From: Abyssibacter profundi
GTDB taxonomy: Bacteria > Pseudomonadota > Gammaproteobacteria > Nevskiales > OUC007
DNA: 64,000 nt
Assembly (NCBI RefSeq): GCF_003151135.1
Contig: NZ_QEQK01000011.1
Coordinates: 1-64,000, forward strand
Reading direction: 5' to 3'
Shown here: positions 38,876 through 55,993 of the stretch, one piece after another
Layout of the letters: each line of letters starts with the position of its first letter
Numbering within the stretch: position 1 is the stretch's first letter
Notes under the pieces: generated by a model
What the model was told of the DNA's origin: nothing
Databases searched by the model: none
What the model saw: only the letters and a program-made list of their open reading frames with translations
Made by a program: the position numbers and the translations under genes

Positions 38876-39216
38876 CCCGCTGAGAAGTGAGCGCTACTGT
38901 GCCACCACACCTCAATTAGCGCTATCGCCCATCAGATTGAGCGCGGCCGCTGGACTGAGACGGCACGGTTTCTGCTAGCTGCCGCGGGTATGTCCTTCGG
39001 GGATCATCCACATGGATGAAACCAGGGGGGTGGGTGTGCTGGCGAACGCGTGCGTGTGCTCGGGGAAATTGCAGCGCGGTTATGTCGTTATGACGCTTTG
39101 TTGACGCTTCGCTAAACGCGGGGCTAGTCTACGGCCGAACCGCTGAGGTCGGACCTCGTCGGGAAGCATAAGTTCAAAGGCACAAAGCCTGAATAAACTC
39201 CATGGAGAAATACTCA
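38876..39216. other. Divergent intergenic region between the fusion kinase-like regulator and the TonB receptor
   Basis: The 341 bases separate divergent genes and hold no coding frame. The receptor promoter is predicted at 39101-39130. A T/G-rich stretch and GGGGGGTGGGTGTG (about 39026-39039) stand out but have no assigned role. No promoter for the minus-strand fusion gene is clear. Confidence 0.5.
39101..39130 (+). promoter_or_regulatory. Predicted sigma-70 promoter of the TonB-dependent receptor gene
   Basis: TTGACG at 39101-39106 and TAGTCT at 39125-39130 with an 18-base spacer, giving an mRNA leader of about 80 bases. No Fur box-like A/T-rich palindrome is seen, so iron control is not supported. 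Confidence 0.5.
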
Positions 39217-41892
39217 ATGCTCAAGCGTGACGAAAACTCGCGCGGAATGCTGAAGCTCAATCCGCTGTCTGCAGCGATTGCAGCGGCGTTTGCATACGCA
39301 GCAGCTCCGCAAGTAGCAGTGGCTCAAACCGACGATGGGGCCGAAGACGAAGAGGCCGTAGACCTTGGGGAATTCGAGGTCACCGGTTCGCGTCTGGGTC
39401 GTGCCGACATCGAAGGCGCGTTGCCGGTCGCGGTCATCGACCGGGCCGACATCGAACGCAGTGGCTTTACCTCGGTGGGTGAGCTGCTTCGCAACACCAC
39501 GTTCAATACCTTTGGTGCCTTCCGTGCCCAGTCCGGTAGCTCCGCCCAGTCGCTGGTGTCGGTTTCGCTGCGTGGCCTGGGTTCCGAGCGTACCCTGGTC
39601 CTGATCGACGGTCGTCGTGCGCCCAAGGCGCCGTTTGCCCCGTCTGCGCAGGACTTGAATGCTGTTCCGATCGCGGTCGTTGAGCGCATTGAAATCCTGA
39701 AGGACGGTGCTTCGGCCATTTATGGTTCCGACGCCATTGCCGGTGTGGTGAACATCATCACCCGCAAGGACTTCAGCGGCACTCAGATCACGTACCAGGA
39801 TCAGACCACGGCCCGCGAGGGCGGTGACAGCCGCGGCGGTCAGATCACGTCGGGTATCTCGGGTGAGAAAGGCAACATCGTGTTCGGCGCATCGTTTTTC
39901 GAACGCGAGATCATCTTTGCCCGCGACAGCCTCTACAACACGCCGGGTGCGAGCTTCTTCTCGAACAACTTCTCCTACCTCGGCCTGCTGGAAGGTAACG
40001 TCAGCCCTGACTTCAACGACGCTGACGGTGACTACTTCGACGACGACACCGGGTTCTTCCTGTACGAAGCTGTGCCTGGTGGCTGCCCGAACCCCACGCC
40101 GGGTTACTTTGCCTATCCCATTGGGGTCGACGATCCCAGCGGCGATCCGGTCAACCTCTGTGGTTACGACTTCACTCTGGTATCTGCTGACGAGGCCGAA
40201 ACCGGCAGTCAGGGCCTGTTCGTACAGGGTAATTACCAGTTCTCGGACAACTGGGGTGTCAACGTCAACGCCAGCATCACGCGTGCAACGTCCTTCGGTC
40301 GTTACGCACCGTCGCTGAACGACGTGCAGATCGCGGTTGATGCCAACAGCCCGAACAACCCGGTGGGTGAGGATTTGTTCCTCTACCATCGCTTTGCCGG
40401 TCTGGGCCCGCGCGACAACAAGACTGATGCCAATGTTTACGACGTGAGCGGTATCTTTTCGGGTGTCGTCGGTCCCGTGGATTTGGACATCGGCGTGCGA
40501 CACAACGAGTACCGGTTCTACGAGCTGGGCAGCAACTACGTTGTGATTCCGATTGCCGAACAGTTCATCAACGATGGCTCGTATGACATCTTTAATCCGG
40601 CGGGCAACCCGGACGATGTCCTCAACGCCATGAAGGCAACTGTCACCCGTGATTCCAAGTGGATCACCGACGAGGCCTTTGTCGAAGCGTCGATGGACTT
40701 GTTCGACATGGCGGGCGGCACGTCGGCTGCTGCGGTGGGCTTGGAGTACCGTGAGGAGTCATACTTCGACCAGTACGATTCGCTGCAGGAAGCGGGCGTC
40801 ATCGGTGGTACAGCGGGCAACTCGGCCGGTACCGACCGTCGCGTGAAGTCGGCCTTCTTCGAAATGTTCATGCCGGCGATCGACTCCCTCGAAGTCACGC
40901 TGTCGGGTCGTTACGAGGACTACAACGATTCCGGTACGAACTTCGCGCCGAAGCTGAGTGCTCGTTACCAGCCGCTGTCGAACATGACGGTTCGCGCTTC
41001 CGTCGGTCAGGGCTTCCGTGCCCCGACGCTGGACGTGATCAGCCAGTTGCCGACCCCGTCGGCCGAGTCGATCAACAACGACCAGGCCACCTGTGAAGCG
41101 GCCGGTGGCACCTTCAGCGGCGGTACCTGCTCGACGTCGCAGCAGGTCAGCACCATCATCCTGGCCAACCCTGAACTTGAAGCCGAAGAGTCGGATCAGT
41201 ACGCGGTTGGCTTTGCCATGGATGTGACGTCGTGGTTCAACTTCTCGGTGGACTACTACCACATTAAGATCGATGAACTGATCAGCTTCATCTCGCCTGG
41301 TGACATCGTGAACCGTCTGGCGGCTGGCGACCCCATCCCGGCTGGACTGGGTGTTGAGCGTCAAGCTCCCTCCAACCGCATCGTGCGTGTTGTGGCTGGT
41401 TTCGCTAATGACGGTGAATTGGAGACCGACGGCATCGATGTGTCCATGGACTTCAATTTTGCAGTCCCGGGCAACCTCGGCACGATTAAGTCGCACCTGG
41501 AAGCTACGCATGTTCTGAGCTACGAGCAGGATGGAGGGCGGAACCAGGCCGGTGATCCCGGTGCACCCGATCTGCGCGTGACGTTGGACAATGCCTGGAC
41601 GTTTGGTCCGGTGACGGCCGCGATTAACGGCAACTACATTTCTGACTACGCGCAGGGTGTGGAAGACGGACGCCAGACCGGAAACGTGCCTTCCTACACC
41701 ACGTGGGACGTGCAGGTTGGTTATGACATTCCGTTTGTCGACGGCACGATCGCACTGGGTGCGCTCAACGTCTTCGATCGTAACCCGCCGGAAAGCTCGG
41801 CCGGTACGGATGGTCAGGGTCGTAACTACAACTTCGACCTCTACGACCAGTACGGTCGTCAGCCGTACGTGAAGTACACGCAGCGCTTCTAA
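39217..41892 (+). CDS. TonB-dependent outer-membrane receptor
   Basis: The 891-residue receptor has a signal peptide ending near PQVAVAQ, a TonB-box-like EFEVTGSRL, and a plug domain with VSVSLRGLGSERTLVLIDGR and ILKDGASAIYGSDAIAGVVN. A 22-strand-type barrel follows, with the usual GQGFRAPTLDVISQLP segment, ending in a terminal Phe (YVKYTQRF). It should import a ligand too large for porins using the TonB complex encoded 6 kb downstream. The ATG at 39217 has GGAGA eight bases upstream; an in-frame ATG at 39202 overlaps that site. The plug type (GSRL, DGRRAP) matches receptors for oligosaccharides or peptides rather than classic siderophore receptors, but the ligand is unknown. A terminator follows. 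Confidence 0.93.
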   Translation: MLKRDENSRGMLKLNPLSAAIAAAFAYAAAPQVAVAQTDDGAEDEEAVDLGEFEVTGSRLGRADIEGALPVAVIDRADIERSGFTSVGELLRNTTFNTFGAFRAQSGSSAQSLVSVSLRGLGSERTLVLIDGRRAPKAPFAPSAQDLNAVPIAVVERIEILKDGASAIYGSDAIAGVVNIITRKDFSGTQITYQDQTTAREGGDSRGGQITSGISGEKGNIVFGASFFEREIIFARDSLYNTPGASFFSNNFSYLGLLEGNVSPDFNDADGDYFDDDTGFFLYEAVPGGCPNPTPGYFAYPIGVDDPSGDPVNLCGYDFTLVSADEAETGSQGLFVQGNYQFSDNWGVNVNASITRATSFGRYAPSLNDVQIAVDANSPNNPVGEDLFLYHRFAGLGPRDNKTDANVYDVSGIFSGVVGPVDLDIGVRHNEYRFYELGSNYVVIPIAEQFINDGSYDIFNPAGNPDDVLNAMKATVTRDSKWITDEAFVEASMDLFDMAGGTSAAAVGLEYREESYFDQYDSLQEAGVIGGTAGNSAGTDRRVKSAFFEMFMPAIDSLEVTLSGRYEDYNDSGTNFAPKLSARYQPLSNMTVRASVGQGFRAPTLDVISQLPTPSAESINNDQATCEAAGGTFSGGTCSTSQQVSTIILANPELEAEESDQYAVGFAMDVTSWFNFSVDYYHIKIDELISFISPGDIVNRLAAGDPIPAGLGVERQAPSNRIVRVVAGFANDGELETDGIDVSMDFNFAVPGNLGTIKSHLEATHVLSYEQDGGRNQAGDPGAPDLRVTLDNAWTFGPVTAAINGNYISDYAQGVEDGRQTGNVPSYTTWDVQVGYDIPFVDGTIALGALNVFDRNPPESSAGTDGQGRNYNFDLYDQYGRQPYVKYTQRF

Positions 41893-41913
41893 ACGAACCG
41901 CAGCAAGGCAGTG

Positions 41914-41945
41914 CACAGGGCCCGAAAGGGCCCTGTGTTTTTTGG
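41914..41945 (+). terminator. Intrinsic terminator after the receptor gene
   Basis: CACAGGGCCC, a GAAA tetraloop and GGGCCCTGTG make a perfect 10-base stem followed by a TTTTTT run. It separates the receptor mRNA from the methyltransferase-sulfotransferase genes, though read-through may occur since the next ATG is only 21 bases after it. Confidence 0.92.
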
Positions 41946-41965
41946 GGCAGATAAATCGTGATGAT

Positions 41966-42952
41966 ATGACCGCGGCGGGCGCAGCTGATCCGGGTTGGAG
42001 CCAATACTGGGCGCAGGGGCATTTGCACTCCTGCCCCACCACGTTTTCGGGTTTTTACGGGCCGCAGACGCAGGCCCTGTGGCAGCGCTTTGCGAGTCGG
42101 CTGGGGCCGGCAGACCGGGTGCTGGAATTGGGCTGCGGCAACGGTGGGTTGTTGCGGTTTCTCGCCGGTCAGTTTGAAGTCGGAACAGAGCCCACATTGA
42201 TCGGCGTGGATGCTGCACAGCTGAATCCAACCGGGCAGGTCGGTGATGAGGGTGCCGGCGCAACGCCGCGTTTTACCCTGCATTCAGAAACACCATTCGA
42301 TGCGCTGGAGCCGACGGCCGAGTTCACCGGGTTGATCAGTCAGTTTGCCTTCGAGTATGGCGCCACGGAATCAGCCTGGGATGCTGTCGAGGGAGCCGTC
42401 GCGCCGCAGTGCAACCTGTGCTGGGTGCTGCACAAGCAGGGCTCACGACTGCAGCGGGTGGCTCAGGACGAGTGCGTGGTGTTACGCACGCTGCTTGAAC
42501 CCCAGGGCGTCCTCGAACGTGCTGCGCAGATGCTGCCGCTGTTGTTGCAAGCAGCCACCCCGGCCGGGCGTCAGGCGCTCAACAGCAGCCCGGCTGCGGT
42601 CGCTACGCGGTCACATTACAATGCGGCGGTTGCCGGTCTGATGGAGCAGGCACGTGCGCTGACTCATGGCGGCTACGCAGAGGAATCGCTGCAACAAATC
42701 TCCGTGCTGTTGGGCAGCGTTCCCCAGTTGGGACGCGCGCGGGCCGAGACCGAACTGCAGCAACTGCGGTCTGGTCTGGTGGCTCACCTGGCGCGGCTGG
42801 ACGCCCTATGTGCATCGGCACTCGATGCGCAGGCTATCGAACAGTACCGGGCGCGACTCGAGCGTCTGGGTTTCCGGTCCATCACAGTCTCCACGCTGTC
42901 GGAGCAGGGAGAAGAGATGGGCTGGGTCTTAGAGGGTTTACGTGAACAATAA
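41966..42952 (+). CDS. Class I SAM-dependent methyltransferase-like protein
   Basis: The 328-residue protein has the motif I of class I methyltransferases in VLELGCGNGGLLRFLAGQF near residue 52, followed by an acidic strand end GVDAAQ, then a helical C-terminal half (about 170-325) with no recognised domain. The substrate is unknown. Its end overlaps the TPR-sulfotransferase by 11 bases, so the two are coupled. It starts just after the receptor terminator. No clear ribosome site precedes the ATG at 41966. A modifying role on the same molecule as the sulfotransferase is inference. Confidence 0.7.
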   Translation: MTAAGAADPGWSQYWAQGHLHSCPTTFSGFYGPQTQALWQRFASRLGPADRVLELGCGNGGLLRFLAGQFEVGTEPTLIGVDAAQLNPTGQVGDEGAGATPRFTLHSETPFDALEPTAEFTGLISQFAFEYGATESAWDAVEGAVAPQCNLCWVLHKQGSRLQRVAQDECVVLRTLLEPQGVLERAAQMLPLLLQAATPAGRQALNSSPAAVATRSHYNAAVAGLMEQARALTHGGYAEESLQQISVLLGSVPQLGRARAETELQQLRSGLVAHLARLDALCASALDAQAIEQYRARLERLGFRSITVSTLSEQGEEMGWVLEGLREQ

Positions 42953-44759
42953 TTCTCAGACGGCGCCAGCAGGTGCTGGTGCACAACGTATCGCGACCGC
43001 GTTTGACCTTTATCGGCGTGGCGAATTGGACCGAGCCAGGGAGATCTTCTCGGAGTACATGCACGACCCGGCGCTGGGTACCGATGCCCGGCGCGGTCTG
43101 GCCGTCATCGCTTGGCAGCGTCGTCAGCCGGACAGCGCCATTCAGTTGCTGATGGAAGCGGTGCGCCTCGCGCCTGATCATTCGGATGCGCGTGCCGATC
43201 TGGCGTTGACGCTGATGATGGCTGGCCGGCTTGAGGAGTCACTGGAACATTGGCAGCGGCGACTGGAGCTGGCCCCGAAGGATGCAGCGGCATGGCACAA
43301 CTTCGGCAAGGCGTTTGTTGACTTGAAGCGCTATGGGGAGGCCGCCGGCGCGTTCGAGCAGGCATTGACGCTCGATCCGAACTTGGTGGGTACGTATATG
43401 ACTTACGCCCGGGCCATGCAGGCAGCGGGTGACTGGTCGAAAGCGGAGGATGTGTGGCGCCGGGCCTTGAAAGTGCCGGCTGCCGAGCAGGCTGGCTACA
43501 TCGGGTTAACGGGATTGCTGTTCAAGCGTGGCCGCCTAGATGAAGCTTTGGAGGCTTATCGTCAGGGCGTGATCCGTTTCCCCGAATCGCCGGATCTGCG
43601 GCTTGGTTTCGCCCAGTTGCTGGAAGATTTTGCGGACAAGGCGGGCGCCGAGCGTGAGTATCGTAAGGTGCTGGCGCTGGATGCAGGCGCACCCATGGCG
43701 CTGGAGGGGCTGCTGACGCTCCTGCGTGGTGATGCCCTTGACGACGACCTGGCGGCGGCGCGTGCGCTGCTGGCAGATGACCAGCAGCCACCAAAGGCTC
43801 GGGCCAATGTTGGATTTGGATTGGGCAAGGCGCTGGATGCCAAGGGGGACGCGGCCGCGGCGATGTCGGTCTGGGCGCAGGCCAACGCGGCACGCCGGGA
43901 ACAGGCCGGACCTTACGACAGGGAGACGGGCAGCCAGTATATCGATCGGCTGATCGAGGCCTTTTCCCCAGAATTTCTCTCGCAGTCGCGGCTTTGGGGG
44001 GTGGACGATCCGCGGCCCGTCTTCATCGTGGGTATGCCCCGCAGTGGGACATCTCTGGTCGAGCAGATTCTCGCCTCGCATCCGGATGCGTACGGGTACG
44101 GAGAGCTGCCGGACATTCCGAAATTGGCCAAGGCCCTGCCGGCACGGGCGAACTCTATCCAGCGCTGGCCTGAGGTCGTGGCGTCGTTGAACCCGGAGCT
44201 CACCCAGCAAACGGCCATGCGCTACCTTGGGGCGCTCATGGAGCGCAAGCGGGTCAGTGCTGGTCGGCTGATTGACAAGGCGCCGATGAATTACCACTAC
44301 GTCGGTTTAATTCTGACGCTATTCCCCAACGCCCATGTCATCTGGTGTCGACGTGATCCGCGCGACATCGGTGTTTCGATATACGGCGAGAACTTCGGGC
44401 TTGCGCAGAAATACGCCACGGATTTGTCCGACATTGGTTTTTATATTCGGCAGTACGCGAGGCTGATGCGGCACTGGCAGGCGCACCTCGGTGAGAGGAT
44501 GCATGTCTGCGAGTATGAAGCGATGGTGTCCGATCCCGAGCAGCAGACCCGAGCTCTGGTGTCGGCTGTCGGGTTGCCGTGGGATGATCAGTGCCTGCGT
44601 TACTACGAAGATGAGCGGCCTGTCCTGACACCCAGCCGCTGGCAGGTTCGTTCGCCGATATACAAGGCTGCAGTCCAGCGCTGGAAGCGTTACGGAGATG
44701 CCTTGAACCCCCTGATTGATGCGTTAGGCGATGAGCTGGAGGGCTACGACAATGGCTGA
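42942..44759 (+). CDS. TPR-repeat sulfotransferase
   Basis: The 605-residue protein has N-terminal tetratricopeptide repeats (about 20-320; AWHNFGKAFVDLKRYGEAAG, AEDVWRRALKV) and a C-terminal sulfotransferase domain (about 355-600). The 5'-phosphosulfate loop VGMPRSGTSLVEQIL starts near residue 363, and the 3'-phosphate motif is VIWCRRDPRDIGVSIYGENF. It would transfer sulfate from PAPS to a hydroxyl or amine on a molecule held by the TPR scaffold, as in bacterial protein-tyrosine sulfotransferases, though the acceptor is unknown. It starts with a GTG inside the methyltransferase gene and overlaps the 2OG oxygenase by 8 bases. Such proteins are often encoded beside TonB-dependent receptors. 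Confidence 0.85.
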   Translation: MNNNSQTAPAGAGAQRIATAFDLYRRGELDRAREIFSEYMHDPALGTDARRGLAVIAWQRRQPDSAIQLLMEAVRLAPDHSDARADLALTLMMAGRLEESLEHWQRRLELAPKDAAAWHNFGKAFVDLKRYGEAAGAFEQALTLDPNLVGTYMTYARAMQAAGDWSKAEDVWRRALKVPAAEQAGYIGLTGLLFKRGRLDEALEAYRQGVIRFPESPDLRLGFAQLLEDFADKAGAEREYRKVLALDAGAPMALEGLLTLLRGDALDDDLAAARALLADDQQPPKARANVGFGLGKALDAKGDAAAAMSVWAQANAARREQAGPYDRETGSQYIDRLIEAFSPEFLSQSRLWGVDDPRPVFIVGMPRSGTSLVEQILASHPDAYGYGELPDIPKLAKALPARANSIQRWPEVVASLNPELTQQTAMRYLGALMERKRVSAGRLIDKAPMNYHYVGLILTLFPNAHVIWCRRDPRDIGVSIYGENFGLAQKYATDLSDIGFYIRQYARLMRHWQAHLGERMHVCEYEAMVSDPEQQTRALVSAVGLPWDDQCLRYYEDERPVLTPSRWQVRSPIYKAAVQRWKRYGDALNPLIDALGDELEGYDNG

Positions 44760-45426
44760 GGTGCCATTTCAGATTTCACCTGCTTTTGCAGTCCCGTTCG
44801 TTCAAACCCAGCTGCCAGGTGCCGACTCGCTGAATCCAAAGCTCAGAGCGCTGTTTCTGAGTCGTGAGGCAGAAGGGGCGGTTTACGCGAACATCAACCC
44901 CACCATGCAGATCGATCGGAATTTGTTTGAGAGTCGATTCGATTTGTTTCATTGGGACGATGTGAATGTCGGCACCTTGCGCGATTTTTGTACCGCTGCG
45001 GTGTTTCGCGCGGTCGCTGAACTGAACGGGTACGACCGTGAGCGCGTGTCCCGGCTACGGATGTCGGCAGACGCGTGGTTTCACATCACCCGTCAGTCCG
45101 GTCAGTTCGGCATGCACAATCACCCGATGGCGACCTGGAGCGGGATTTACTGCGTGGATTCGGGCTATCCCGATGGGAGTCCCGTGGAATCCGCGCGGGT
45201 GCAGTTCATGCACCCGGTGCCGGGTGCAGGCTCGTTCTCCGATATGTCGGTGGCCAACATGCGAGCTCCTTGGTCTAACCGTCATAAGGAAATCGCGCTG
45301 GAGCCAGGGCAGTTGGTGTTATTTCCCTCCTGGCTGATGCACCAAGTGCTGCCATATCGGGGGACTGGGGAGCGGATTACCGTTGCCTTCAATGCCTGGT
45401 TTAAGGATTTACCCGAAGCAGCCTAA
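44752..45426 (+). CDS. 2OG-Fe(II) oxygenase family protein (TIGR02466/PF13759 type)
   Basis: The 224-residue protein has the iron-binding region FGMHNHPMATWSGIYCV, with His122 and His124, and the distal His197 in FPSWLMHQVLPY followed by GERITVAFN, whose Arg would bind 2-oxoglutarate. This is the putative 2OG-Fe(II) oxygenase family that is repeatedly encoded next to TPR-sulfotransferases. It should hydroxylate a side chain or small molecule; the acceptor is unknown. The ATG at 44752 has GGAG 10 bases upstream and overlaps the sulfotransferase stop by 8 bases, so the three genes form a coupled unit. An earlier ATG at 44731 would include that site and is unlikely. Confidence 0.82.
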   Translation: MAEVPFQISPAFAVPFVQTQLPGADSLNPKLRALFLSREAEGAVYANINPTMQIDRNLFESRFDLFHWDDVNVGTLRDFCTAAVFRAVAELNGYDRERVSRLRMSADAWFHITRQSGQFGMHNHPMATWSGIYCVDSGYPDGSPVESARVQFMHPVPGAGSFSDMSVANMRAPWSNRHKEIALEPGQLVLFPSWLMHQVLPYRGTGERITVAFNAWFKDLPEAA

Positions 45427-45543: not shown

Positions 45544-45576
45544 TGTCTGATATGACCCTTTTTTAGGATGACTTGT

Positions 45577-46353
45577 ATGAGTGACATGACTGCTCAGCGC
45601 CTCATTATTGGTGTTGTTGCGTCAGGCATGCTGGGGCTTGCCCTTCCGGCAGCAGCCAGCACGGCAACCGTGAACCGTGTGATTCAGACGCAGGTTCAGG
45701 CTGAACGCAATGCGAAAGGCACCCAGCGCCAGATCGACAATCTCGACGATGAAACGCAGGCCATTGTTGCGGATTATCGGGCCACGCTGATCGAGATCGA
45801 CTCGCTCAAGAGCTATGTCGCACAGCTCGAACGCCAGGTTGCGGCACAGCAGGAAGAGATCGGCTCCATCGAGGAGCAGCTTCAGCAGATCGAGTCCACC
45901 AATCGCGGTGTGTTGCCGCTGATGGAGGACATGATCACGGCGCTGGATCAGTTTGTGGCGCTGGATGTGCCCTTCCTGCCGAAGGAGCGCAGTGATCGCG
46001 TCGCCGAATTGGAAACGCTGATGTCACGTGCGGACATCTCTACGGCCGAGAAGTACCGCCGCATTCTCGAGGCCTATCAGATCGAGATGGAGTTCGGCCG
46101 GAACATCGAGGCCTACCAAGGTGAGTTGGGTGATACCGGCCGCGAGGTGGACTTCCTGCGCGTCGGTCGTCTCGCCCTGCTGTACTCGACCCCGAACGGT
46201 GAAGAGTTCGGCTACTGGAACAACGAATCCCGCCAGTGGGTGGTCGATTCGGATCTCGAAGACTTTGTGACGGATGGGCTGAAGATTGCGCGTAAGCAGT
46301 CACCGCCGAATCTCATGCTCATGCCCGTTCAAGCACCGCAGGAGGCCAACTAA
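45577..46353 (+). CDS. DUF3450 family periplasmic coiled-coil protein
   Basis: The 258-residue protein has a signal peptide (ASGMLGLALPAAAS) and a long coiled coil (about 30-110; QLERQVAAQQEEIGSIEEQL), then the DUF3450 globular part with GRLALLYSTPNGEEFGYWNN. DUF3450 proteins are encoded immediately before TtpC/ExbB in TonB2-type clusters and probably support the energising complex in the periplasm. Stop and next start overlap as TAATG. The start at 45577 fits AGGA upstream; the ATG at 45568 overlaps that site. Confidence 0.85.
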   Translation: MSDMTAQRLIIGVVASGMLGLALPAAASTATVNRVIQTQVQAERNAKGTQRQIDNLDDETQAIVADYRATLIEIDSLKSYVAQLERQVAAQQEEIGSIEEQLQQIESTNRGVLPLMEDMITALDQFVALDVPFLPKERSDRVAELETLMSRADISTAEKYRRILEAYQIEMEFGRNIEAYQGELGDTGREVDFLRVGRLALLYSTPNGEEFGYWNNESRQWVVDSDLEDFVTDGLKIARKQSPPNLMLMPVQAPQEAN

Positions 46354-47729
46354 TGCACGGTCAGATTACTCGCGTGGCCGCCTGCCTGATCGGCGCTGCC
46401 AGCATGCTCGCGGCGCCCCATGTTGGTGCGCAGGCCAAGTCGCTGGATGAGCTGCTGCAGCAGACCCGCGCAGCTCGCTCGGCAGAGAACAAAGAGAACG
46501 AACGTCGGATCCAGGAGTTCCGCAGTCAGCGCAATCAGCAGGCCGCGCTGCTGAAGCAAGCCAAGGCCGAACTGGCCGCACTGGAGCGCCGGGCTGACGA
46601 GCTGTCGACCACCTTCGATCAGAACGAAGAGACGCTCGCCGAACTCGAGACCACGCTGACCAATAAGTCCGGTGCGCTGGGTGAGATGTTCGGTGTGGTG
46701 CGCCAGGTTTCGGGTGATGTTTACTCCGCCGCTCAGAACTCGATGGTCACGGCCCAGCTGGGCTCTGAGCGAATGGAATTCCTGGGTGATCTTGCCGAGT
46801 CCAAACGGCTGCCCTCGATCGCCAAGCTGGAACAGCTTTGGTTTGAGATGCAGCGTGAGATGACCGAGTTGGGCAAGGTGGTGCGCTTCGACGCCACAGT
46901 CGTCGAGGGCGACGGTGAGCAAGCGACCAAGCCGGTCGTGCGACTGGGTACCTTCACCGCTGTGGTTGATGGCGAATTCGTCACCTACGAAACCGGTGTC
47001 GAAGGCAAGTTCCGCAAGCTGCCCAAGCAGCCATCTGCGAGCTACCTCTCTGTGGTTGAAAACTTCGTCGAGCAGTCCAGCGGTTATCACACCATGGTGG
47101 TCGATCCCAGTCAGGGCACGCTGCTACGCGCCAAGATTCAGGAGCGCAACCTGATCCAGCGTGTGATGGAAAGCGAGGGCGGCATGATCGGTTGGCTGAT
47201 CATCGGTCTGACCGTGATTGGTCTGTTGATCTCGCTGCTGAAGTTCCTGTCGCTGGGTGCACTGAGCGCCAAGATCGCAGGGCAGAAAAAGAACATCGGC
47301 GAGCCGAAGGACAACAACCCGCTGGGTCGTGTGTTGCAGGCGTACTACCAGGATCCAACCGCCGATACCGAAACCATCGAACTGCGCATGGATGAAGCGG
47401 TACTCAAGGAGACCCCGGCGGTGGAACGTGGGTTGTCGATCATTAAGATTCTGGCAGCCATCGGTCCGCTGCTCGGCTTGCTCGGCACCGTGACCGGCAT
47501 GATCCAGGTGTTCCAGTCGATCACCCTGTATGGCACGGGCGATCCGAAGCTGATGGCCGGCGGTATCTCGCAGGCCTTGATGACCACCGTGCTGGGTCTG
47601 GTGATGGCGATTCCGCTCATCCTGATCCACAGCATGCTGGCCAGCCGCGCCAAGGGGATCATCCAGACGCTGGACGAGGAGTCCGTGGGTCTCATCGCTG
47701 AGCACAAGGGCTCCAATGCTGCAGCTTGA
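46353..47729 (+). CDS. TtpC-like MotA/TolQ/ExbB proton channel with periplasmic N-terminal extension
   Basis: The 458-residue protein begins with a signal-like segment (LIGAASMLAAPHVGAQA), a periplasmic coiled coil (~30-115) and a globular part. A MotA/TolQ/ExbB domain (~265-450) follows, with transmembrane helices in GWLIIGLTVIGLLISLLKF, IGPLLGLLGTVTGMIQVF and LGLVMAIPLILIHSML. This matches TtpC of the Vibrio TonB2 system, which forms part of the proton-driven complex and links it to the envelope. It pairs with a second, short ExbB encoded 14 bases within its end. The LGTVTGMI sequence is the conserved channel region. Confidence 0.88.
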   Translation: MHGQITRVAACLIGAASMLAAPHVGAQAKSLDELLQQTRAARSAENKENERRIQEFRSQRNQQAALLKQAKAELAALERRADELSTTFDQNEETLAELETTLTNKSGALGEMFGVVRQVSGDVYSAAQNSMVTAQLGSERMEFLGDLAESKRLPSIAKLEQLWFEMQREMTELGKVVRFDATVVEGDGEQATKPVVRLGTFTAVVDGEFVTYETGVEGKFRKLPKQPSASYLSVVENFVEQSSGYHTMVVDPSQGTLLRAKIQERNLIQRVMESEGGMIGWLIIGLTVIGLLISLLKFLSLGALSAKIAGQKKNIGEPKDNNPLGRVLQAYYQDPTADTETIELRMDEAVLKETPAVERGLSIIKILAAIGPLLGLLGTVTGMIQVFQSITLYGTGDPKLMAGGISQALMTTVLGLVMAIPLILIHSMLASRAKGIIQTLDEESVGLIAEHKGSNAAA

Positions 47730-48237
47730 GCCATTTGCGTCGATTCTGGACTTCCTGGAAAACGGAGGTCCGATCGTCTGGATCCTGCTGTTCGTGGCAA
47801 TCGGGCTCTGGAGCCTGATCATTGAGCGCCTGCTGTTTGTGAGCTTCACGTATCCGAAGCTCAAGCAGGCGGCAATCGAGCAGTGGGACCAGCAGGCGGA
47901 CCGACGGAGCTGGTTGTCCAAAGGGCTGCGCGCTCGTCTGATATCGGAAACTTCGAAATCAGTGGCGCGCTCGGTCCTGACCATCAAGACGCTGGTGGCG
48001 CTTTGCCCGATGATCGGGCTGCTCGGCACTGTGACCGGCATGGTGTCCGTCTTTGACGTGATGGCCATTTCTGGCACGGGGAATGCCCGGGCGATGGCAT
48101 CCGGTGTCTACCGCGCAACACTGCCGACCATGGCTGGCATGGTGGTGGCGTTGTCCGGCATTTATTTCAGCGTGCAGCTCGAAAATCTAGCCAAGCGTGA
48201 GCGACGCGAGCTAGAAGACGAGCTCGGCTCGCATTGA
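47716..48237 (+). CDS. exbB: ExbB proton channel subunit
   Basis: The 173-residue protein is a short MotA/TolQ/ExbB-family member: an N-terminal transmembrane helix GGPIVWILLFVAIGLWSL, then LVALCPMIGLLGTVTGMVSVFDV and a last helix TMAGMVVALSGIYFSVQL. It forms the pentameric proton channel with ExbD, driving TonB. The start overlaps the TtpC-like gene by 14 bases. A second ExbB-type protein next to a TtpC-like one is the mark of TonB2 systems. Confidence 0.9.
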   Translation: MLQLEPFASILDFLENGGPIVWILLFVAIGLWSLIIERLLFVSFTYPKLKQAAIEQWDQQADRRSWLSKGLRARLISETSKSVARSVLTIKTLVALCPMIGLLGTVTGMVSVFDVMAISGTGNARAMASGVYRATLPTMAGMVVALSGIYFSVQLENLAKRERRELEDELGSH

Positions 48238-48252
48238 TCGAGGAATACGAAC

Positions 48253-48660
48253 ATGCGTCGTAGAGCGAGTTCGCAAGAGGAAGAAGCGGCTATCGACATG
48301 ACACCGATGCTCGACATCGTGTTCATCATGCTGATCTTCTTCATCGTGACCACCTCCTTTGTGAAGGAGGCCGGTATCGATGTCAGCCGTCCGAACGCCA
48401 GCACCGCTGAGCGTAAGGAGGCCGGCAACATCCTGATCGCCATCCGTTCCAATGGTGATGTGTGGATTGACAAGCGTCAGGTGGATATTCGCTCGGTGCG
48501 TGCGAATGTCGAAAGACTGCATGCCGAGAACCCGGAGGGCGCCGTCGTGATCATCGCAGACAAGGCCTCCGAAACCGGACGTTTTGTCGAGGTCATGGAT
48601 CAAGTCCGACTGGCCGGTGTCGAAAACGTGTCAATTGCCGCTCAAGAGCCCGGCAGCTAA
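48253..48660 (+). CDS. exbD: ExbD biopolymer transport protein
   Basis: The 135-residue protein has the single transmembrane helix with the essential Asp, in DMTPMLDIVFIMLIFFIVTT, and a periplasmic domain (about 45-130; VWIDKRQVDIRSVRANVERL). It is a partner of ExbB in proton-driven TonB energising. Length is normal. It lies 15 bases after exbB. Confidence 0.93.
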   Translation: MRRRASSQEEEAAIDMTPMLDIVFIMLIFFIVTTSFVKEAGIDVSRPNASTAERKEAGNILIAIRSNGDVWIDKRQVDIRSVRANVERLHAENPEGAVVIIADKASETGRFVEVMDQVRLAGVENVSIAAQEPGS

Positions 48661-48692
48661 CGGGCGCCTAGAGCCAGGCGACAGGAAAAGAC

Positions 48693-49313
48693 ATGCGAAG
48701 ACTCGGAGCAATCGGATTGGCGGTGGTCGTTGCCGTTGGTCTGTTCTGGATGATGCACGCCCTCGTGTATCTCAGTGGCGGTGATCTGGCCAAGCGGGAA
48801 GACCTGGGCGGGATCGACTTTGTACGCCTGAAGCGTCAGGAAACGCTTCAGGAACGTGAGCGCCGCAAACCGGAGAAACCACCACCGCCGAAGAAGCCGC
48901 CGCCGCCGCCGAAGCTGAAGTCCGTGCAGACGCCGAAGCCGCAGCAGCAGCCGCAGCAGATGAACTTGCCGAACCTCAACCTGCCGACCAATATCGGCGG
49001 TGGGCCATTCTTGGGGACTTATAGTGCGGGACAGACGTCCGGTAGTTCGCAGGCGGTGCCGTTGGTCCGGATCCAACCCCAGTATCCCAGGCGTGCGGCC
49101 CGAGCCGGGACCGAGGGATACGTCACCATGTCATTGGTGATCAATCCGGATGGCACGGTGCGGGACGCGAAGGTGACCGACGCGAGTCCGCGTGGGGTAT
49201 TCGAGCGGGCAGCGATCGCTGCGATTCTCAAGTGGAAGTTCAAGCCGAGAATTATCGATGGCCAGCCCGTTGAGCAGTCTGCGACGCAGACCCTGAACTT
49301 TACGTTGAACTGA
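48693..49313 (+). CDS. tonB: TonB energy-transducing protein
   Basis: The 206-residue protein has an N-terminal transmembrane helix (GLAVVVAVGLFWMMHALVYL) and a periplasmic Pro/Lys-rich spacer of about 35 residues (KPPPPKKPPPPPKLKSVQTP). The C-terminal TonB domain (~120-205) contains YPRRAARAGTEGYVTMSLVI and AAIAAILKWKFKPR. It transmits proton-motive force from ExbB/ExbD to TonB-dependent receptors, most plausibly the one at 39217. It is a short TonB2-type protein. Its stop overlaps the next start by one base (TGATG). Confidence 0.92.
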   Translation: MRRLGAIGLAVVVAVGLFWMMHALVYLSGGDLAKREDLGGIDFVRLKRQETLQERERRKPEKPPPPKKPPPPPKLKSVQTPKPQQQPQQMNLPNLNLPTNIGGGPFLGTYSAGQTSGSSQAVPLVRIQPQYPRRAARAGTEGYVTMSLVINPDGTVRDAKVTDASPRGVFERAAIAAILKWKFKPRIIDGQPVEQSATQTLNFTLN

Positions 49314-50551
49314 TGACAATGGTTAAGACATTACCGGCATTGGTAGGGGCTGTGTTGCTGGGCACGCTGGCGGTTTCACCGTCCGCGCAGGCCCAGACCG
49401 ATTGCGAGAATCCCCGCGAAGCATCCGGGTCGCTCACGGAGTTCACCTACCGCCGTCTCACGCGTATCCAGGAAGACATTGCGGAAGAGAAGTACAACGA
49501 TGCGATTGAGGGTGTGCGCGAACTGCTGCCCAAGATCAAGCGCAACGAGTACGAGCAGGCACTGGTCTATCAAACGGAGGCCTTTGCCTGGGCATCGCAG
49601 GACAACTACCGGAACGCGATCCCGGCATTTCGCAAGGCGATCGAGCTGAATGCGCTGCCGCAGGCTCAGCACGAGCAGATGCTGAACAACTTGGGGCAGT
49701 TGTATTACGCAGTCGAGCAGAAAGACGAAGCCATCAAGTACTTGCTGCGTTATCTCGATGAAACTTGCAGCGATCCGTCTCCTGATGCCTACATCCTGAT
49801 CGCAAGCATCTACGTCGACAAGAAGCAGTACGCCAAGGCCCTCCCCTTTGTGGATCGAGCCATACGCTCCAAGAAGGATGTGCCCGAGACTTGGTATCAG
49901 CTCAAACTCGCGATCCATTACGAGCAAAAGCAGTTCAAGCCCGCTGCTGAAACGCTGGTCAAGTTGATCTCCCTGCATCCGATCAAAGAGGATTACTGGA
50001 AGCAGTTATCAGGCGTCTTCCTTGAGATGAAGGATGACCCGGAGTCGTTGGCTGTACTTGCGCTGGCCGGACGCCAGGGATTTCTGGATACGGAACGTGA
50101 GCTGGAGAATCTGGCGAATGTGTACCTGTTCCTTGAGATCCCCTACAAGGCTGCGGAAGTGCTCCAACGCGGGATGGAGCAGGGCATCATCAAGCGTGAT
50201 CTTGATTCGCTGGAGAAGCTGGGCACCGCTTGGCAGCTGGCACGCGAGAACGCCGAGGCGCTGGAGGCTTATACCGCCGCTGCGCCGCTGGCTTCCGATG
50301 GTCGCATCTGGTTCCGTCTTGGTCAGATTTACATCGACGATGAGAACTGGACCAAGGCCGAGGAGGCGCTGAAGAATGCGCTGGCCAAGGGTGTCGATGA
50401 TCGGGGTGAAGTGCAGCTGATGATGGGCGTCGCCGCCTGGAACCAAGGGCGCACAGAAGAAGCCCGGCAGGCGTTTCTGGCCGCACGCAACGATAGTTCT
50501 ACCAAGTCTCAGGCGCAGGCCTGGCTCGCGCACTTGGCTGCAGAAGGCTAA
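49313..50551 (+). CDS. TPR protein of the TonB2 cluster
   Basis: The 412-residue protein has a signal peptide (ALVGAVLLGTLAVSPSAQA) and tetratricopeptide repeats along most of its length (AIPAFRKAIELNALPQAQHE, EQMLNNLGQLYYAVEQKDEA, GRIWFRLGQIYIDDENWTKA). Such periplasmic TPR proteins close TonB2 clusters and probably scaffold the complex or its receptor. The ATG at 49313 overlaps tonB's stop; an ATG at 49319 is possible. OppA follows after 20 bases, so the transcript may continue. Confidence 0.85.
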   Translation: MTMVKTLPALVGAVLLGTLAVSPSAQAQTDCENPREASGSLTEFTYRRLTRIQEDIAEEKYNDAIEGVRELLPKIKRNEYEQALVYQTEAFAWASQDNYRNAIPAFRKAIELNALPQAQHEQMLNNLGQLYYAVEQKDEAIKYLLRYLDETCSDPSPDAYILIASIYVDKKQYAKALPFVDRAIRSKKDVPETWYQLKLAIHYEQKQFKPAAETLVKLISLHPIKEDYWKQLSGVFLEMKDDPESLAVLALAGRQGFLDTERELENLANVYLFLEIPYKAAEVLQRGMEQGIIKRDLDSLEKLGTAWQLARENAEALEAYTAAAPLASDGRIWFRLGQIYIDDENWTKAEEALKNALAKGVDDRGEVQLMMGVAAWNQGRTEEARQAFLAARNDSSTKSQAQAWLAHLAAEG

Positions 50552-50571: not shown

Positions 50572-52173
50572 ATGCGACGCGCAATACATGCGCTCGTGGC
50601 GAGTGTTGTCTTGGTTCTGGGTGCCACCCAGGCAATGGCGGTGGAGCTGGCCGCCGAACAGGTGCTTCGCAAGGGCAACGGGGCTGAGCCTCAGACACTC
50701 GACCCGCATAAGGCCGAGGGCGTGCCCTCGTCGAATATTCTTCGCGACCTCTACGAGGGATTGACTGGCGAAGCACCCAACGGGGACATCGTCCCTGGCG
50801 CAGCGGAATCCTGGACCATTTCGGAAGACGGGACCGTTTACACCTTCCGCCTTCGCGAAGCGGCGCGATGGTCGAATGGTGACCCGGTGACGGCGCAGGA
50901 CTTCGTGTTCGGGCTGCGGCGCAGCGCCGATCCGATGACCGCCTCCAAGTACGCTCAGATTCTGGCGCCCATCGAGAACGCCGAACGTGTGGTGGCAGGC
51001 AAGCTACCGGTCGAAGAATTGGCGGTTCGTGCGCTGGATGATCTCACCGTTGAGATCCGCCTAAAGGCACCCACACCGTATTTTCTGGGCTTGCTCAATC
51101 ACTCAAGCACCTACCCGGTGCATCGCCCCAGCATTGAAGAACACGGCGACAAGTTCTCGCGACCGGGTAACTTGGTGGGCAATGGTGCTTACGTGCTGAG
51201 CGAGTGGGTTGTGCAATCTCACATCGTGCTGGAGCGCAACCCCCAGTACTGGGATGACGACAACACCACGATTAACACGGTCTACTACTACGCCACCGAG
51301 GATCAGTCATCGGAACTCAAGCGCTATCGCGCCGGTGAATTGGACTACACCTATGACGTGCCGGTGTCGCAGGTCGCCTGGATTCGCGAAAATCTCGGTG
51401 ACGAATTACAGGTGTCAACCTACCTGGGTGTGTACTACTTTGGCTTCAATGTCACCAAGCCGCCGTTCAAGGACAACGTCAAGCTGAGACGGGCCTTGTC
51501 GATGGCCATTGATCGCCAGGTGATCTGCGACAAGATCGTTAAGTTGGGCGAGCAACCGGCTTACGGATTTGTCCCGCCCGGGATTACCGGTTACGAATCC
51601 CAGGTGGCGGACTACGCCGATTTGGACCGGGAGGCCCGGTTCGCTGAGGCACGGCGCCTATACCGGGAAGCCGGATACTCGGAAGACAATCCGCTGCAGG
51701 TGGAAATTCGCTACAACACTCACGAAAACCATAAGAAGGTTTCGCTGGCCGTGGCGGCCATGTGGCGCGCCGTGCTGGGGGTTGATTACACGCTGATTAA
51801 CGAAGAGTGGAAGGTGTTCCTGCAGACGCGCAAGCTGAAGCAGGACACCGAGGTGTTCCGCGCGGGCTGGATTGGCGACTACAACGACCCGTACACCTTC
51901 CTGGAATTACTGCACTCCAAGCATGGCATCAACGATTCCGGGTACAACAATCCGGAATACGACGCGCTACTGGCCGAGATTGCCGTGCAAACGGATATGG
52001 CCAGACGCGCCAAACTGATGGAGCAGGCCGAGCGGATGTTGCTGGCTGATCAGCCCATCATGCCGATTTACTACTACGTCGAAAAAGGCTTGGTGAAGCC
52101 CTACGTGGACGGGTTTGTGTCCAACATCATGGACCATCACTACACCAAGCACTGGCGCATCCTGGCGCATTGA
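50572..52173 (+). CDS. oppA: Oligopeptide ABC transporter, substrate-binding protein
   Basis: The 533-residue protein has a signal peptide (LVASVVLVLGATQAMA) and the SBP_bac_5 fold: LRKGNGAEPQTLDPHKAEGV, then ILRDLYEGLTGEAPNGDIVP, LRRALSMAIDRQVICDKI and the C-terminal ADQPIMPIYYYVEKGLVKPY. OppA binds oligopeptides in the periplasm, including cell-wall peptides. A GGGGGGAG ribosome site precedes the ATG. Followed by complete oppBCDF. Confidence 0.93.
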   Translation: MRRAIHALVASVVLVLGATQAMAVELAAEQVLRKGNGAEPQTLDPHKAEGVPSSNILRDLYEGLTGEAPNGDIVPGAAESWTISEDGTVYTFRLREAARWSNGDPVTAQDFVFGLRRSADPMTASKYAQILAPIENAERVVAGKLPVEELAVRALDDLTVEIRLKAPTPYFLGLLNHSSTYPVHRPSIEEHGDKFSRPGNLVGNGAYVLSEWVVQSHIVLERNPQYWDDDNTTINTVYYYATEDQSSELKRYRAGELDYTYDVPVSQVAWIRENLGDELQVSTYLGVYYFGFNVTKPPFKDNVKLRRALSMAIDRQVICDKIVKLGEQPAYGFVPPGITGYESQVADYADLDREARFAEARRLYREAGYSEDNPLQVEIRYNTHENHKKVSLAVAAMWRAVLGVDYTLINEEWKVFLQTRKLKQDTEVFRAGWIGDYNDPYTFLELLHSKHGINDSGYNNPEYDALLAEIAVQTDMARRAKLMEQAERMLLADQPIMPIYYYVEKGLVKPYVDGFVSNIMDHHYTKHWRILAH

Positions 52174-52212
52174 TGACGTGCGCCCACTCTTCGCAACCGA
52201 TGGTCTGAAGCC

Positions 52213-53136
52213 ATGCTGAGCTTTGCCCTCAAACGGCTGACAGCTGCCATACCGACGCTGCTGGTGCTGATCACGTTGGCCTTTTTCATGATGCGTCTGG
52301 CGCCGGGCGGGCCATTCGACCTCGAAAAACCCGTTCCTCCCGAAGTTCGCGCCAATCTGGATGCCGCTTACGGTCTTGATAAGCCTTTGCTGGTCCAATA
52401 CGCGAACTATCTTGGCGATGTGTTGCAGGGCGATCTGGGGCCGTCGTTTCAATACGTTGACTACTCGGTCAACGAATTGATCGCACAGGGGTTCCCGGTC
52501 TCGCTGAAACTGGGCATCTCGGCAATGATTGTCGCCGTCGTGTTTGGCTCGCTGTTCGGGATGATCGCCGCCATGCGGCAGAACTCGGTAACCGATTACA
52601 GCATGATGACCGTCGCCATGACGGGAATCTCGATTCCGAACTTTGTCGTGGCCCCTTTGTTGATTCTGGTATTCGCGGTTGCGTTGGGCTGGCTGCCGGC
52701 GGGCGGGTGGAACAATGGCGCCTGGCCCAACATGGTGCTGCCGGTCATCGCATTGGCCCTGCCACAGGTGGCCTACGTGGCGCGCATCATGCGCGGCAGC
52801 ATGATTGAGGTGCTGCGCTCGAATTATCTGCGGACGGCTCGCGCCAAGGGACTACCGATGCGACAGGTGATGCTGCGCCATGCGCTAAAGCCTGCCTTCC
52901 TGCCGGTTCTGTCGTATCTCGGCCCGGCCACCGCAGGGATCATCACCGGGTCGGTGGTGATGGAGCAGATCTTCTCCATCCCCGGCTTGGGTCGCTTCTT
53001 TGTCCAAGGCGCGCTGAACCGTGACTACACGCTGGTGCTCGGTGTGGTGATCTTCTACGGCGCATTGATCATCGTGTTCAACTTTTTGGTGGATCTGCTC
53101 TACAGCGTGCTGGACCCGAAGGTGCGTGCCCAATGA
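52213..53136 (+). CDS. oppB: Oligopeptide ABC transporter permease OppB
   Basis: The 307-residue membrane protein has the N-terminal helix AIPTLLVLITLAFFMMRL and the BPD_transp_1 domain with the EAA loop YLRTARAKGLPMRQVMLRHA, and LGPATAGIITGSVVMEQIFS near the end. It pairs with OppC to form the channel. Its stop overlaps oppC as ATGA. Confidence 0.95.
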   Translation: MLSFALKRLTAAIPTLLVLITLAFFMMRLAPGGPFDLEKPVPPEVRANLDAAYGLDKPLLVQYANYLGDVLQGDLGPSFQYVDYSVNELIAQGFPVSLKLGISAMIVAVVFGSLFGMIAAMRQNSVTDYSMMTVAMTGISIPNFVVAPLLILVFAVALGWLPAGGWNNGAWPNMVLPVIALALPQVAYVARIMRGSMIEVLRSNYLRTARAKGLPMRQVMLRHALKPAFLPVLSYLGPATAGIITGSVVMEQIFSIPGLGRFFVQGALNRDYTLVLGVVIFYGALIIVFNFLVDLLYSVLDPKVRAQ

Positions 53137-54038
53137 CCACACAAGCCGCACAAGACGTATCGGACGTGCTCGATGGCGATGAGATTGTTCAGGGGCGCAG
53201 CCTATGGGTAGACGCCTGGCGACGGCTGCGCCGCAATCGGGCTGCGGTGACCAGTCTGGTGATCTTGGTGTTCATGCTGCTGCTGTGTTTCGTGGGGCCG
53301 CTGGTCGCGCCTTACAGCTTTGATGCGGTGGACTGGGACAAGGTGGCCACTGCCCCCAGCCTGAGTGACGGTCACTGGTTCGGCACGGATTCGGTCGGGC
53401 GTGATTTGTTCGTACGGACCTTGGTGGGCGGGCAGATCTCGCTGCTGGTCGGAATCGTCGCCACGGCGGTCAGCCTGTTAATCGGCACGGCCTGGGGTGC
53501 GACCGCCGGCTACCTGGGTGGTCGGGTCGACGCGGTGATGATGCGCGTTGTCGACATCCTCTACGCATTGCCGTTCATGTTCCTGGTCATTCTGTTAATG
53601 GTGCTGTTTGGTCGCAACATCGTGTTGATCTTTGTGGCCATCGGCGCGATTACTTGGCTGGACATGGCGCGAATCGTCCGGGGGCAGACGCTGACGCTAA
53701 AGGGCAGAGAGTTTGTCGAGGCGGCACAGGCCATGGGCGTGAGTACCCGAAACATCATCCTGCGGCACGTCGTTCCTAATTTGCTGGGTGTGGTCGTCGT
53801 GTACGTGACGCTGACGATCCCCCGGGTCATTCTGGTGGAGTCTTTCCTGAGTTTTCTGGGCCTGGGGGTGCAGGAGCCGTCCACGTCTTGGGGGGCGCTG
53901 GTGAATGAAGGCGCTCGTGAGATGGAGTCATCCTGGTGGACGCTGGCATTCCCGGCGAGCTTCTTGGCCATCACGCTGTTCTGCTTCAACTTCGTCGGGG
54001 ACGGGCTGCGCGATGCCCTGGACCCCAAGGATCGGTAG
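53133..54038 (+). CDS. oppC: Oligopeptide ABC transporter permease OppC
   Basis: The 301-residue permease has the OppC N-terminal segment WRRLRRNRAAVTSLVILVFM and HWFGTDSVGRDLFVR, six transmembrane helices, and an EAA loop FVEAAQAMGVSTRNIILRHV. SFLSFLGLGVQEPSTSWG is characteristic of OppC/DppC. The start overlaps oppB by four bases. Confidence 0.95.
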   Translation: MTTQAAQDVSDVLDGDEIVQGRSLWVDAWRRLRRNRAAVTSLVILVFMLLLCFVGPLVAPYSFDAVDWDKVATAPSLSDGHWFGTDSVGRDLFVRTLVGGQISLLVGIVATAVSLLIGTAWGATAGYLGGRVDAVMMRVVDILYALPFMFLVILLMVLFGRNIVLIFVAIGAITWLDMARIVRGQTLTLKGREFVEAAQAMGVSTRNIILRHVVPNLLGVVVVYVTLTIPRVILVESFLSFLGLGVQEPSTSWGALVNEGAREMESSWWTLAFPASFLAITLFCFNFVGDGLRDALDPKDR

Positions 54039-54041
54039 CCC

Positions 54042-55019
54042 ATGCTTTTGACGGTCGACAACCTGGGTGTACGGTTCACGACGGAAGACGGCGTGGTGGA
54101 TGCCGTCAACGGCCTGAGCTTCGAGCTGGATGCCGGTGCCACCTTGGGCATTGTGGGTGAATCTGGCTCCGGTAAGAGTCAGACCGCGCTGGCGATCATG
54201 GGGCTGCTGGCGGCCAACGGACAGGTCACAGGCTCTGTTCGATTCAAGGACCAAGAGCTTGTTGGTGCGAGTCAGCGGACCATGAACCGCATCCGCGGCG
54301 CCCATATCGGAATGATTTTTCAGGATCCGATGACCTCGCTCAATCCCTATCTCAAGGTCAGCACCCAGATGGCTGAGGTGCTGGTGCGACATCGTGGAAT
54401 GGGACGCCGAGAGGCGGTGCAGGAGTCGATCAAAATGCTCGACGCCGTGCGAATCCCCGATGCGAAGAATCGGGTGCATCGCTACCCGCATGAGTTTTCG
54501 GGTGGGATGCGCCAGCGCGTCATGATCGCCATGACGTTGCTGACCCGGCCCGAGCTGTTAATCGCCGATGAGCCGACAACCGCGCTCGACGTGACGGTGC
54601 AGGCGCAGATCCTCGACCTGCTGTCCGATTTGCGAACCGAGTTCGGCGTGGCCGTCATCATGATCACGCACGACCTTGGGGTGGTCGCCGATTTATGCGA
54701 TGACGTACTCGTGCTGTACGGCGGTCAGATCATGGAACATGCCAGCGCCCGGACGCTGTTCAAGGGGCCGACGCACCCGTATGCGCGAGGTTTGTTGGAT
54801 TCCATCCCGAGTTTGGAGTCGGTGCACCAATCGGAATTGGTGGCGATCCCTGGCAATCCGCCGGACTTGCTCCATCTGCCACCCGGCTGCCCCTTCGAGG
54901 CGCGCTGCGCCTGGGCGCACGAATCCTGCGTAGCGCAGCGGCCTGCGTTGGTGACCGTCGACGGGTCTGATCACCGCCGCGCCTGCCACGCGGATGTTCA
55001 AGAGGTACGTCCCACATGA
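54042..55019 (+). CDS. oppD: Oligopeptide ABC transporter ATPase OppD
   Basis: The 325-residue ATPase has Walker A GESGSGKSQ, the signature FSGGMRQRVMI, and Walker B LLIADEPTTALD followed by the H-loop ITHDLGVV. The C-terminal oligo_HPY region has Cys residues in GCPFEARCAWAHESCVAQRP, which bind a [4Fe-4S] cluster in some OppD/DppD proteins. It lies three bases after oppC and overlaps oppF by four. Confidence 0.95.
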   Translation: MLLTVDNLGVRFTTEDGVVDAVNGLSFELDAGATLGIVGESGSGKSQTALAIMGLLAANGQVTGSVRFKDQELVGASQRTMNRIRGAHIGMIFQDPMTSLNPYLKVSTQMAEVLVRHRGMGRREAVQESIKMLDAVRIPDAKNRVHRYPHEFSGGMRQRVMIAMTLLTRPELLIADEPTTALDVTVQAQILDLLSDLRTEFGVAVIMITHDLGVVADLCDDVLVLYGGQIMEHASARTLFKGPTHPYARGLLDSIPSLESVHQSELVAIPGNPPDLLHLPPGCPFEARCAWAHESCVAQRPALVTVDGSDHRRACHADVQEVRPT

Positions 55020-55993
55020 GTCGGCCCCTGCTGTCACTGCGTCAGGTCAAGGTGAGCTTTCCGATCGCCACCGGAATGCTCTCCAAGCCGAAGACGCTGC
55101 ACGCTGTTAACGGAGTGAATCTGGATTTACATCCGGGAGAGACACTCGGGGTAGTTGGCGAATCCGGTTGCGGAAAATCCACCTTGGCCCGGGCGATTCT
55201 CGGCCTGGTGCCAACCGCGGCCGGCAGCATCAGCCTGCTGGGCAAGGAACTGACCACGCAGTCGAGCGGCGACTGGCAACGGACTCGACGTGATTTACAG
55301 GTGGTTTTCCAGGATCCGCTTGCTGCTTTGAATCCGCGCATGACCGTGGGCGAGATCATCGGAGAGCCCCTGGGTGTGCATGAGCCAGGGCTCACCAAGG
55401 AAGCCCGACGTGAGCGCGTGCGGGCCATGATGAAGCGCGTCGGCCTGCTCCCTAACCAGATCAATCGCTACCCGCACGAATTTTCCGGAGGTCAGTGTCA
55501 GCGCATCGGCATCGCCCGGGCGCTGATTCTGGAGCCGAAGGTCGTGATCTGTGATGAGCCGGTCTCGGCATTGGATGTGTCCATCCAGGCGCAGATCGTC
55601 AATTTGCTGATCAAGCTGAAGCATGAGATGCAGCTGTCATTGGTGTTCATCGCCCACGATCTAGCTGTTGTCCGCCACATCAGCGACCGGGTCATGGTGA
55701 TGTATCTCGGCAAGGTGGTCGAAGTGGCTGATGCTGAGGAGTTGTACCGCAAGCCGCGACATCCGTATTCCCGGGCTTTGCTAAGCGCGATCCCGGTGCC
55801 GGACCCGGATCACGAACGCGAGCGTGAATCAAAATTCCTGCGAGGGGAATTGCCATCTCCGCTGAATCCGCCATCGGGCTGCGCGTTCCGAACCCGTTGT
55901 CCGATCGCTGATGCCAAGTGTGCGCAGGATGAGCCAGGACTGCGGTCTGTCGACGGAGGCGCGGCCCATGCCGCGTGTCATTACGTAGGGTAG
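55016..55993 (+). CDS. oppF: Oligopeptide ABC transporter ATPase OppF
   Basis: The 325-residue ATPase has Walker A GESGCGKSTL, the signature FSGGQCQRIGIARAL, Walker B VVICDEPVSALDVS and the H-loop IAHDLAVV. A C-terminal oligo_HPY region with GCAFRTRCPIADAKCAQDEP follows. It forms the heterodimeric motor with OppD. Start overlaps oppD (ATGA). The next gene begins 4 bases after its stop. Confidence 0.95.
   Translation: MSRPLLSLRQVKVSFPIATGMLSKPKTLHAVNGVNLDLHPGETLGVVGESGCGKSTLARAILGLVPTAAGSISLLGKELTTQSSGDWQRTRRDLQVVFQDPLAALNPRMTVGEIIGEPLGVHEPGLTKEARRERVRAMMKRVGLLPNQINRYPHEFSGGQCQRIGIARALILEPKVVICDEPVSALDVSIQAQIVNLLIKLKHEMQLSLVFIAHDLAVVRHISDRVMVMYLGKVVEVADAEELYRKPRHPYSRALLSAIPVPDPDHERERESKFLRGELPSPLNPPSGCAFRTRCPIADAKCAQDEPGLRSVDGGAAHAACHYVG

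Follow-up and report, generated by a model that had tools for sequence, protein, structure and literature searches.

Overall organization of the locus

The window, a 64,000-nucleotide stretch of the Abyssibacter profundi genome (contig NZ_QEQK01000011.1, positions 1 to 64,000), contains a TonB-dependent receptor (TBDR) gene followed by the genes of three enzymes, an energizing complex and a peptide importer (Table 1). The receptor possesses both a plug (PF07715) and a barrel (PF00593) above the cut-off values, which identifies it as a TBDR, while a Pfam search of the window receptor detected no STN signaling domain, which sets it apart from transducing receptors of the FecA type. The three enzymes are a methyltransferase (MT), a TPR-sulfotransferase (ST) and a PF13759 oxygenase (OX), the genes of which overlap at 42942–42952 (MT/ST) and 44731–44759 (ST/OX). 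The energizer genes (45568–50551) encode DUF3450, TtpC-type, ExbB, ExbD, TonB and TPR proteins, which is the order of TonB2/TonB3-type systems. This arrangement is as described in the original prediction, which had placed three overlapping enzyme genes between a TBDR and its energizing complex, but had overlooked the importer, the hairpin behind the receptor gene and the Asp/Asn-hydroxylases that belong to the module in relatives. The importer (50572–55993) is a complete OppABCDF set, with a PF00496 binding protein, two permeases and two oligo_HPY ATPases, and corresponds to an oligopeptide importer. As the full Opp set begins only ~20 bp past the energizer, the receptor, enzymes, energizer and importer form a single row of 15 genes on the + strand. 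The window is best explained as a complete trans-envelope peptide import locus with a TBDR, its own TonB2/TonB3-type energizer and OppABCDF, in which the ligand is presumably a peptide.

Table 1. Features of the locus from the receptor gene to the peptide importer
Feature	Position	Strand	Evidence
TBDR, plug and barrel, member of the enzyme-linked superclade	39202..41892	+	PF07715 79 bits, PF00593 137 bits; tree
Terminator-like hairpin in the receptor/MT gap	41913..41943	+	11 bp stem and T run; z -3.1
Predicted class I SAM-dependent MT with helical insertion	41966..42952	+	fold; 12 invariant positions; module-specific family
TPR and sulfotransferase domain PF13469 (ST)	42942..44759	+	145.7 bits; PAPS motifs, Glu388/Lys446 intact
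PF13759 2OG-Fe(II) oxygenase (OX)	44731..45426	+	65.5 bits, cut-off 27
DUF3450 protein (TtpB type)	45568..46353	+	268 bits; PMC6957404
TtpC-type MotA/TolQ/ExbB protein, N-terminal coiled region	46353..47729	+	domain search
ExbB	47716..48237	+	
ExbD	48253..48660	+	
TonB	48693..49313	+	
TPR protein (TtpD type), last energizer gene	49313..50551	+	PMC6957404
OppA-like peptide-binding protein	50572..52173	+	PF00496; start ~20 bp past the TtpD-type gene
OppB-like permease	52213..53136	+	
OppC-like permease	53133..54038	+	
OppD-like ATPase	54042..55019	+	oligo_HPY domain
OppF-like ATPase	55016..55993	+	oligo_HPY domain

In Vibrio, the TonB2 and TonB3 operons contain ttpB (DUF3450), ttpC, exbB, exbD, tonB and ttpD (TPR) (PMC6957404). 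The six energizer genes of the window share this order and these domain types, and the TonB3 operon likewise starts with a receptor gene; however, the Vibrio operons are described there in the context of iron, and the passages on them mention neither modification enzymes nor Opp genes, both of which are found in the window. The OppABCDF genes also differ from the known importer in standing in one row with an outer-membrane receptor and an energizer. The parts of the locus are known families, and its energizer and importer are known systems; as a whole, it is a TonB-dependent uptake locus. No description of this combination or of an exchangeable enzyme set was found in the literature searched, which covered few subscription papers.

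Analysis of the receptor/MT gap revealed a terminator-like hairpin with a T run, ending about 20 nt before the MT start. Such a hairpin is present in 27/27 superclade receptors whose next gene encodes an enzyme (the window and 26 other loci), starting 17–42 nt past the receptor stop codon, and also in 25/35 other superclade receptors, compared with about 1% of shuffled sequences. Its sequence varies among loci while the stem is retained. The hairpin is a probable attenuator, and its position suggests that readthrough likely accounts for expression of the enzymes, at a level below that of the receptor. On the other side of the receptor gene, positions 39085–39160 are shared with a same-genus genome (L041) and contain TTATGTCGTTATGAC, then TTGACG and TAGTCT; this conserved stretch is likely a promoter with an operator. 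A divergent 1715-residue hybrid signaling protein (33728–38875; CheB/CheR-like, PAS and GGDEF-EAL regions by eye) adjoins the receptor in both genomes.

Features of the three enzymes

The catalytic domain of ST has protein-tyrosine sulfotransferases (TPSTs) as its best solved relatives, ahead of much weaker matches such as CurM. The structure of ST was predicted with a pLDDT of 94.2; its TPR half resembles the TPR superhelix of OGT and the other half resembles tick TPST (8w5z), with about 23% identity between ST and TPST. Residues R367, G369, E388, D445-K446, R471 and D475 are invariant in 27 homologues and align with TPST. ST retains the PAPS motif (PRSGT), and its Glu388 and Lys446 match in position the catalytic Glu/Lys pair of TPST1/2 and tick TPST. 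In contrast to ST, TPSTs are membrane enzymes of the secretory pathway and lack TPRs. The sulfotransferase of a sister MAG named Abyssibacter is 69% identical to ST, and a scan of genome contigs gave two relatives only. A second superclade receptor is encoded in the same genome (L077:1-2026, contig C2), with a sulfotransferase gene ~8 kb away.

OX belongs to the PF13759 family, and its His129, His131, His204 and Arg215 align with the iron and 2OG ligands of the solved structure 2rg4. The MT showed only weak Pfam matches below the cut-offs, while its predicted structure (pLDDT 91.8) has a class I fold with a long helical insertion and no close solved relative. Twelve positions are invariant across 18–19 aligned homologues, and an alternative TTG start at 41942 is possible. 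A search by fold for a specific function of the MT gave matches to class I enzymes in general only (TM about 0.4). As no signal sequence was apparent on reading the MT, ST and OX sequences, all three enzymes should be cytoplasmic.

Recurrence and exchange of the enzyme cassette in relatives

To determine co-localization in same-order genomes, we scored the distance to a TBDR for the best ST homologue of each genome and for PF13759 enzymes, using the counts at 5 kb. At this distance, a TBDR accompanies the ST homologue in 19/30 genomes (2.15 expected) and the second class of PF13759 enzymes in 16/39 (2.7 expected). The housekeeping PF13759 class scored 0/7. At 1 kb the counts fall to 7/30 for ST (0.99 expected) and 6/39 for OX (1.15 expected), because the enzymes of one cassette displace each other more than 1 kb from the receptor. 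Of the 13 non-self loci inspected from a search of 274 Gammaproteobacteria for the MT family, 7 have a TBDR about 6 kb away or less, and one more adjoins a DUF3450/TonB operon. Long PF05118 genes (≥400 residues; those checked with Pfam have TPRs) start within 8 kb of a superclade receptor in at least 18/29 cases against 0.23 expected, and OppA lies within 15 kb of such a receptor in at least 22/86 cases against 0.85 expected, both counts being lower bounds from related genomes with non-independent events. Short PF05118 genes near a superclade receptor numbered 0/59 among the matches listed (0.4 expected). Co-localization of the enzymes with the receptor thus far exceeds chance, bearing out the claim that TPR-sulfotransferases and PF13759 enzymes recur beside such receptors; the methyltransferase belongs with them.

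Phylogenetic analysis placed the receptors in one TBDR superclade that is paired with changing enzyme sets. The MT-ST-OX set of the window is also found in loci L040, L041 and L044, while L043 and L045 carry MT, ST and an Asp/Asn-beta-hydroxylase (AspBH, PF05118). Other loci combine TPR-OX with AspBH (L082, L086, L089), several STs with AspBH and AspBH-ST fusions (L074, L098, L106, L166, L171), OX-MT-ST-ST (L143), OX-MT-AspBH (L147), or OX and MT with an OGT-like TPR-GT41 enzyme (L145); a PF13640 oxygenase is a further enzyme type. The enzymes vary between loci, and the receptor stays as the constant partner. PF05118 hydroxylases, whose TPR-containing forms adjoin the same receptor superclade in relatives, are absent from the window genome. 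The fusions lie at L074:12119-14011 (confirmed with Pfam), L166:1834-3669 and L171:15195-17036 (both HMM matches), and the TPR-GT41 gene (OGT/SPINDLY-like, L145:1244-3280) is 37 bp from its superclade receptor, with PF13759 and MT genes alongside. In many relatives (L063, L068, L074, L075, L088, L104–L106, L162, L166 and L169), the cassette adjoins ribosomal-operon genes (rpsD, rpoA and rplQ families), a fixed chromosomal address. Recurrent neighbors of the superclade receptors are OppA/OppB or POT transporters and M2 and S9 peptidases, suggesting that these receptors probably import peptides.

Comparison of the window with L041 revealed an island of divergence at 39202–45426. The flanks are well conserved at the protein level (79% identity for the upstream gene and 83–99% for the energizer) and align at 75–79% nucleotide identity. 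Residues 1–255 of the receptor are 81% identical, while the barrel is only 52% identical, and the enzymes are 30% (MT), 50% (ST) and 56% (OX) identical. The L041 barrel shares more identity with the barrel from another family (63%) than with that of its congener (52%), whereas its energizer is nearest to that of the congener (86–93% versus 53–54%). This single comparison fits a model in which the barrel and enzymes were replaced, or co-diversified rapidly, while the locus itself stayed in place; the boundary lies just past the plug. Because ST and MT in this same-genus case show roughly the same distance to every comparison group, we infer, rather than prove, that the barrel and enzymes may have been exchanged by joint transfer.

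Potential target of the enzymes

Recurrence of the cassette, its exchangeable enzymes and the protein-modifying enzymes found as nearest structures all support the original prediction of a modification system that is linked to the receptor and acts on a polypeptide. The resemblance of the catalytic domain of ST to protein-tyrosine sulfotransferases and of its TPR part to OGT suggests that the target is probably a polypeptide. The enzymes found in the module of relatives (TPR-Asp/Asn hydroxylase, PF05118-ST fusion, TPR-PF13759, PF13640 oxygenase and TPR-GT41) are likewise protein-type modifiers. A precedent for such a pathway is FlmG of Caulobacter, the TPR domain of which binds flagellin, which is glycosylated in the cytoplasm before export (PMC7591256). 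Like FlmG, ST has an N-terminal TPR domain, which in FlmG picks out the exported protein to be modified in the cytoplasm; however, the FlmG catalytic domain is a glycosyltransferase acting on flagellin and is not homologous to the PF13469 domain of ST, so the analogy would be one of function only.

We propose the co-encoded receptor itself as the target, a guess to which we assign a probability of roughly 0.4. In the proposed mechanism, the enzymes encoded between the receptor and energizer genes would modify polypeptides in the cytoplasm. The TPR domain of ST would dock the protein target, and its catalytic domain would move sulfate from PAPS, most likely onto tyrosine, while the PF13759 enzyme would hydroxylate and the MT methylate the same target. 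The receptor would be modified before or during Sec export, and the groups on its extracellular loops may tune or protect ligand binding. The attenuator-like hairpin fits a high dosage of receptor and a low dosage of enzymes. Arguing against this target, 27 of the 63 superclade receptors have no such enzyme nearby, indicating that modification would be unnecessary for the receptor fold, and none of the Tyr, Ser, Asp, Asn and Arg columns clearly follows enzyme presence. The acidic tyrosine loop DADGDYFDDD of the window receptor was considered as a sulfation site and rejected, as the loop is not conserved.

Alternatively, the enzymes may act on the ligand: a ribosomal peptide encoded elsewhere would be sulfated, hydroxylated, methylated and exported, and would return through the receptor and Opp in the manner of a metallophore or pheromone. 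The oligopeptide importers adjoining the receptors, the peptide-type enzymes and the joint variation of barrel and enzymes are all consistent with this, and an importer into the cytoplasm would also deliver the ligand to the enzymes. We nevertheless consider it doubtful, as the cassettes contain no exporter or leader peptidase and the enzyme sets are more varied than one product class suggests. No conserved small precursor ORF, which a RiPP cluster would have close to its enzymes, was found in the cassette gaps of 42 loci, and the cassette cores of the window, L043 and L044 have no unexplained gap of more than 60 bp. The candidates in the gaps were discarded as shadows of ribosomal or larger genes or as unrelated ORFs. 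For the same want of a precursor or export gene, the earlier suggestion of a sulfated signal made here and then imported found no support, and the oligopeptide importers point to peptide uptake instead. Three points lead us to prefer the receptor over the ligand as the target: its constancy as a partner, the failure to find a precursor peptide, and the precedent of FlmG.

Another exported or envelope protein, such as OppA, the DUF3450 protein or a surface protein, could be the target, with the linkage to the receptor reflecting shared regulation. The energizer and OppA are co-encoded in the window, and a TPR enzyme such as FlmG can find its target throughout the cytoplasm; but this is unlikely given that many enzyme cassettes have a receptor and yet no energizer or Opp genes. 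Slightly more unlikely still is the tailoring of a non-peptide metabolite imported or recycled by the receptor. Some members of the PF13469 family and of the class I methyltransferases are small-molecule enzymes, and the MT fits no specific characterized class, but TPR domains occur in three enzyme families, ST is nearest to TPST, scaffold-building genes are absent, and the alternative enzymes of the module are GT41 and Asp/Asn hydroxylases. That the enzymes are chance passengers of an ordinary receptor, to which the enzyme-free superclade receptors might point, is highly improbable: the co-localization statistics largely refute it, barring strongly biased sampling, and the association recurs across families of Gammaproteobacteria.

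More broadly, we tentatively suggest that outer-membrane peptide receptors may be tailored covalently by exchangeable TPR-guided sulfotransferase, hydroxylase, methyltransferase and glycosyltransferase cassettes; the barrel and enzymes would evolve or move together, as a unit, against a constant plug and energizer. If so, bacteria would have dedicated, swappable enzymes that decorate their nutrient receptors (or peptide ligands) post-translationally with sulfate and hydroxyl groups, and such receptors would be the bacterial equivalent of peptide receptors with sulfated tyrosines. Covalent modification would join the ways in which TonB-dependent receptors acquire specificity, and TPR-sulfotransferases and PF13759 enzymes would gain a substrate class. 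The link to a peptide importer makes the modification idea directly testable.
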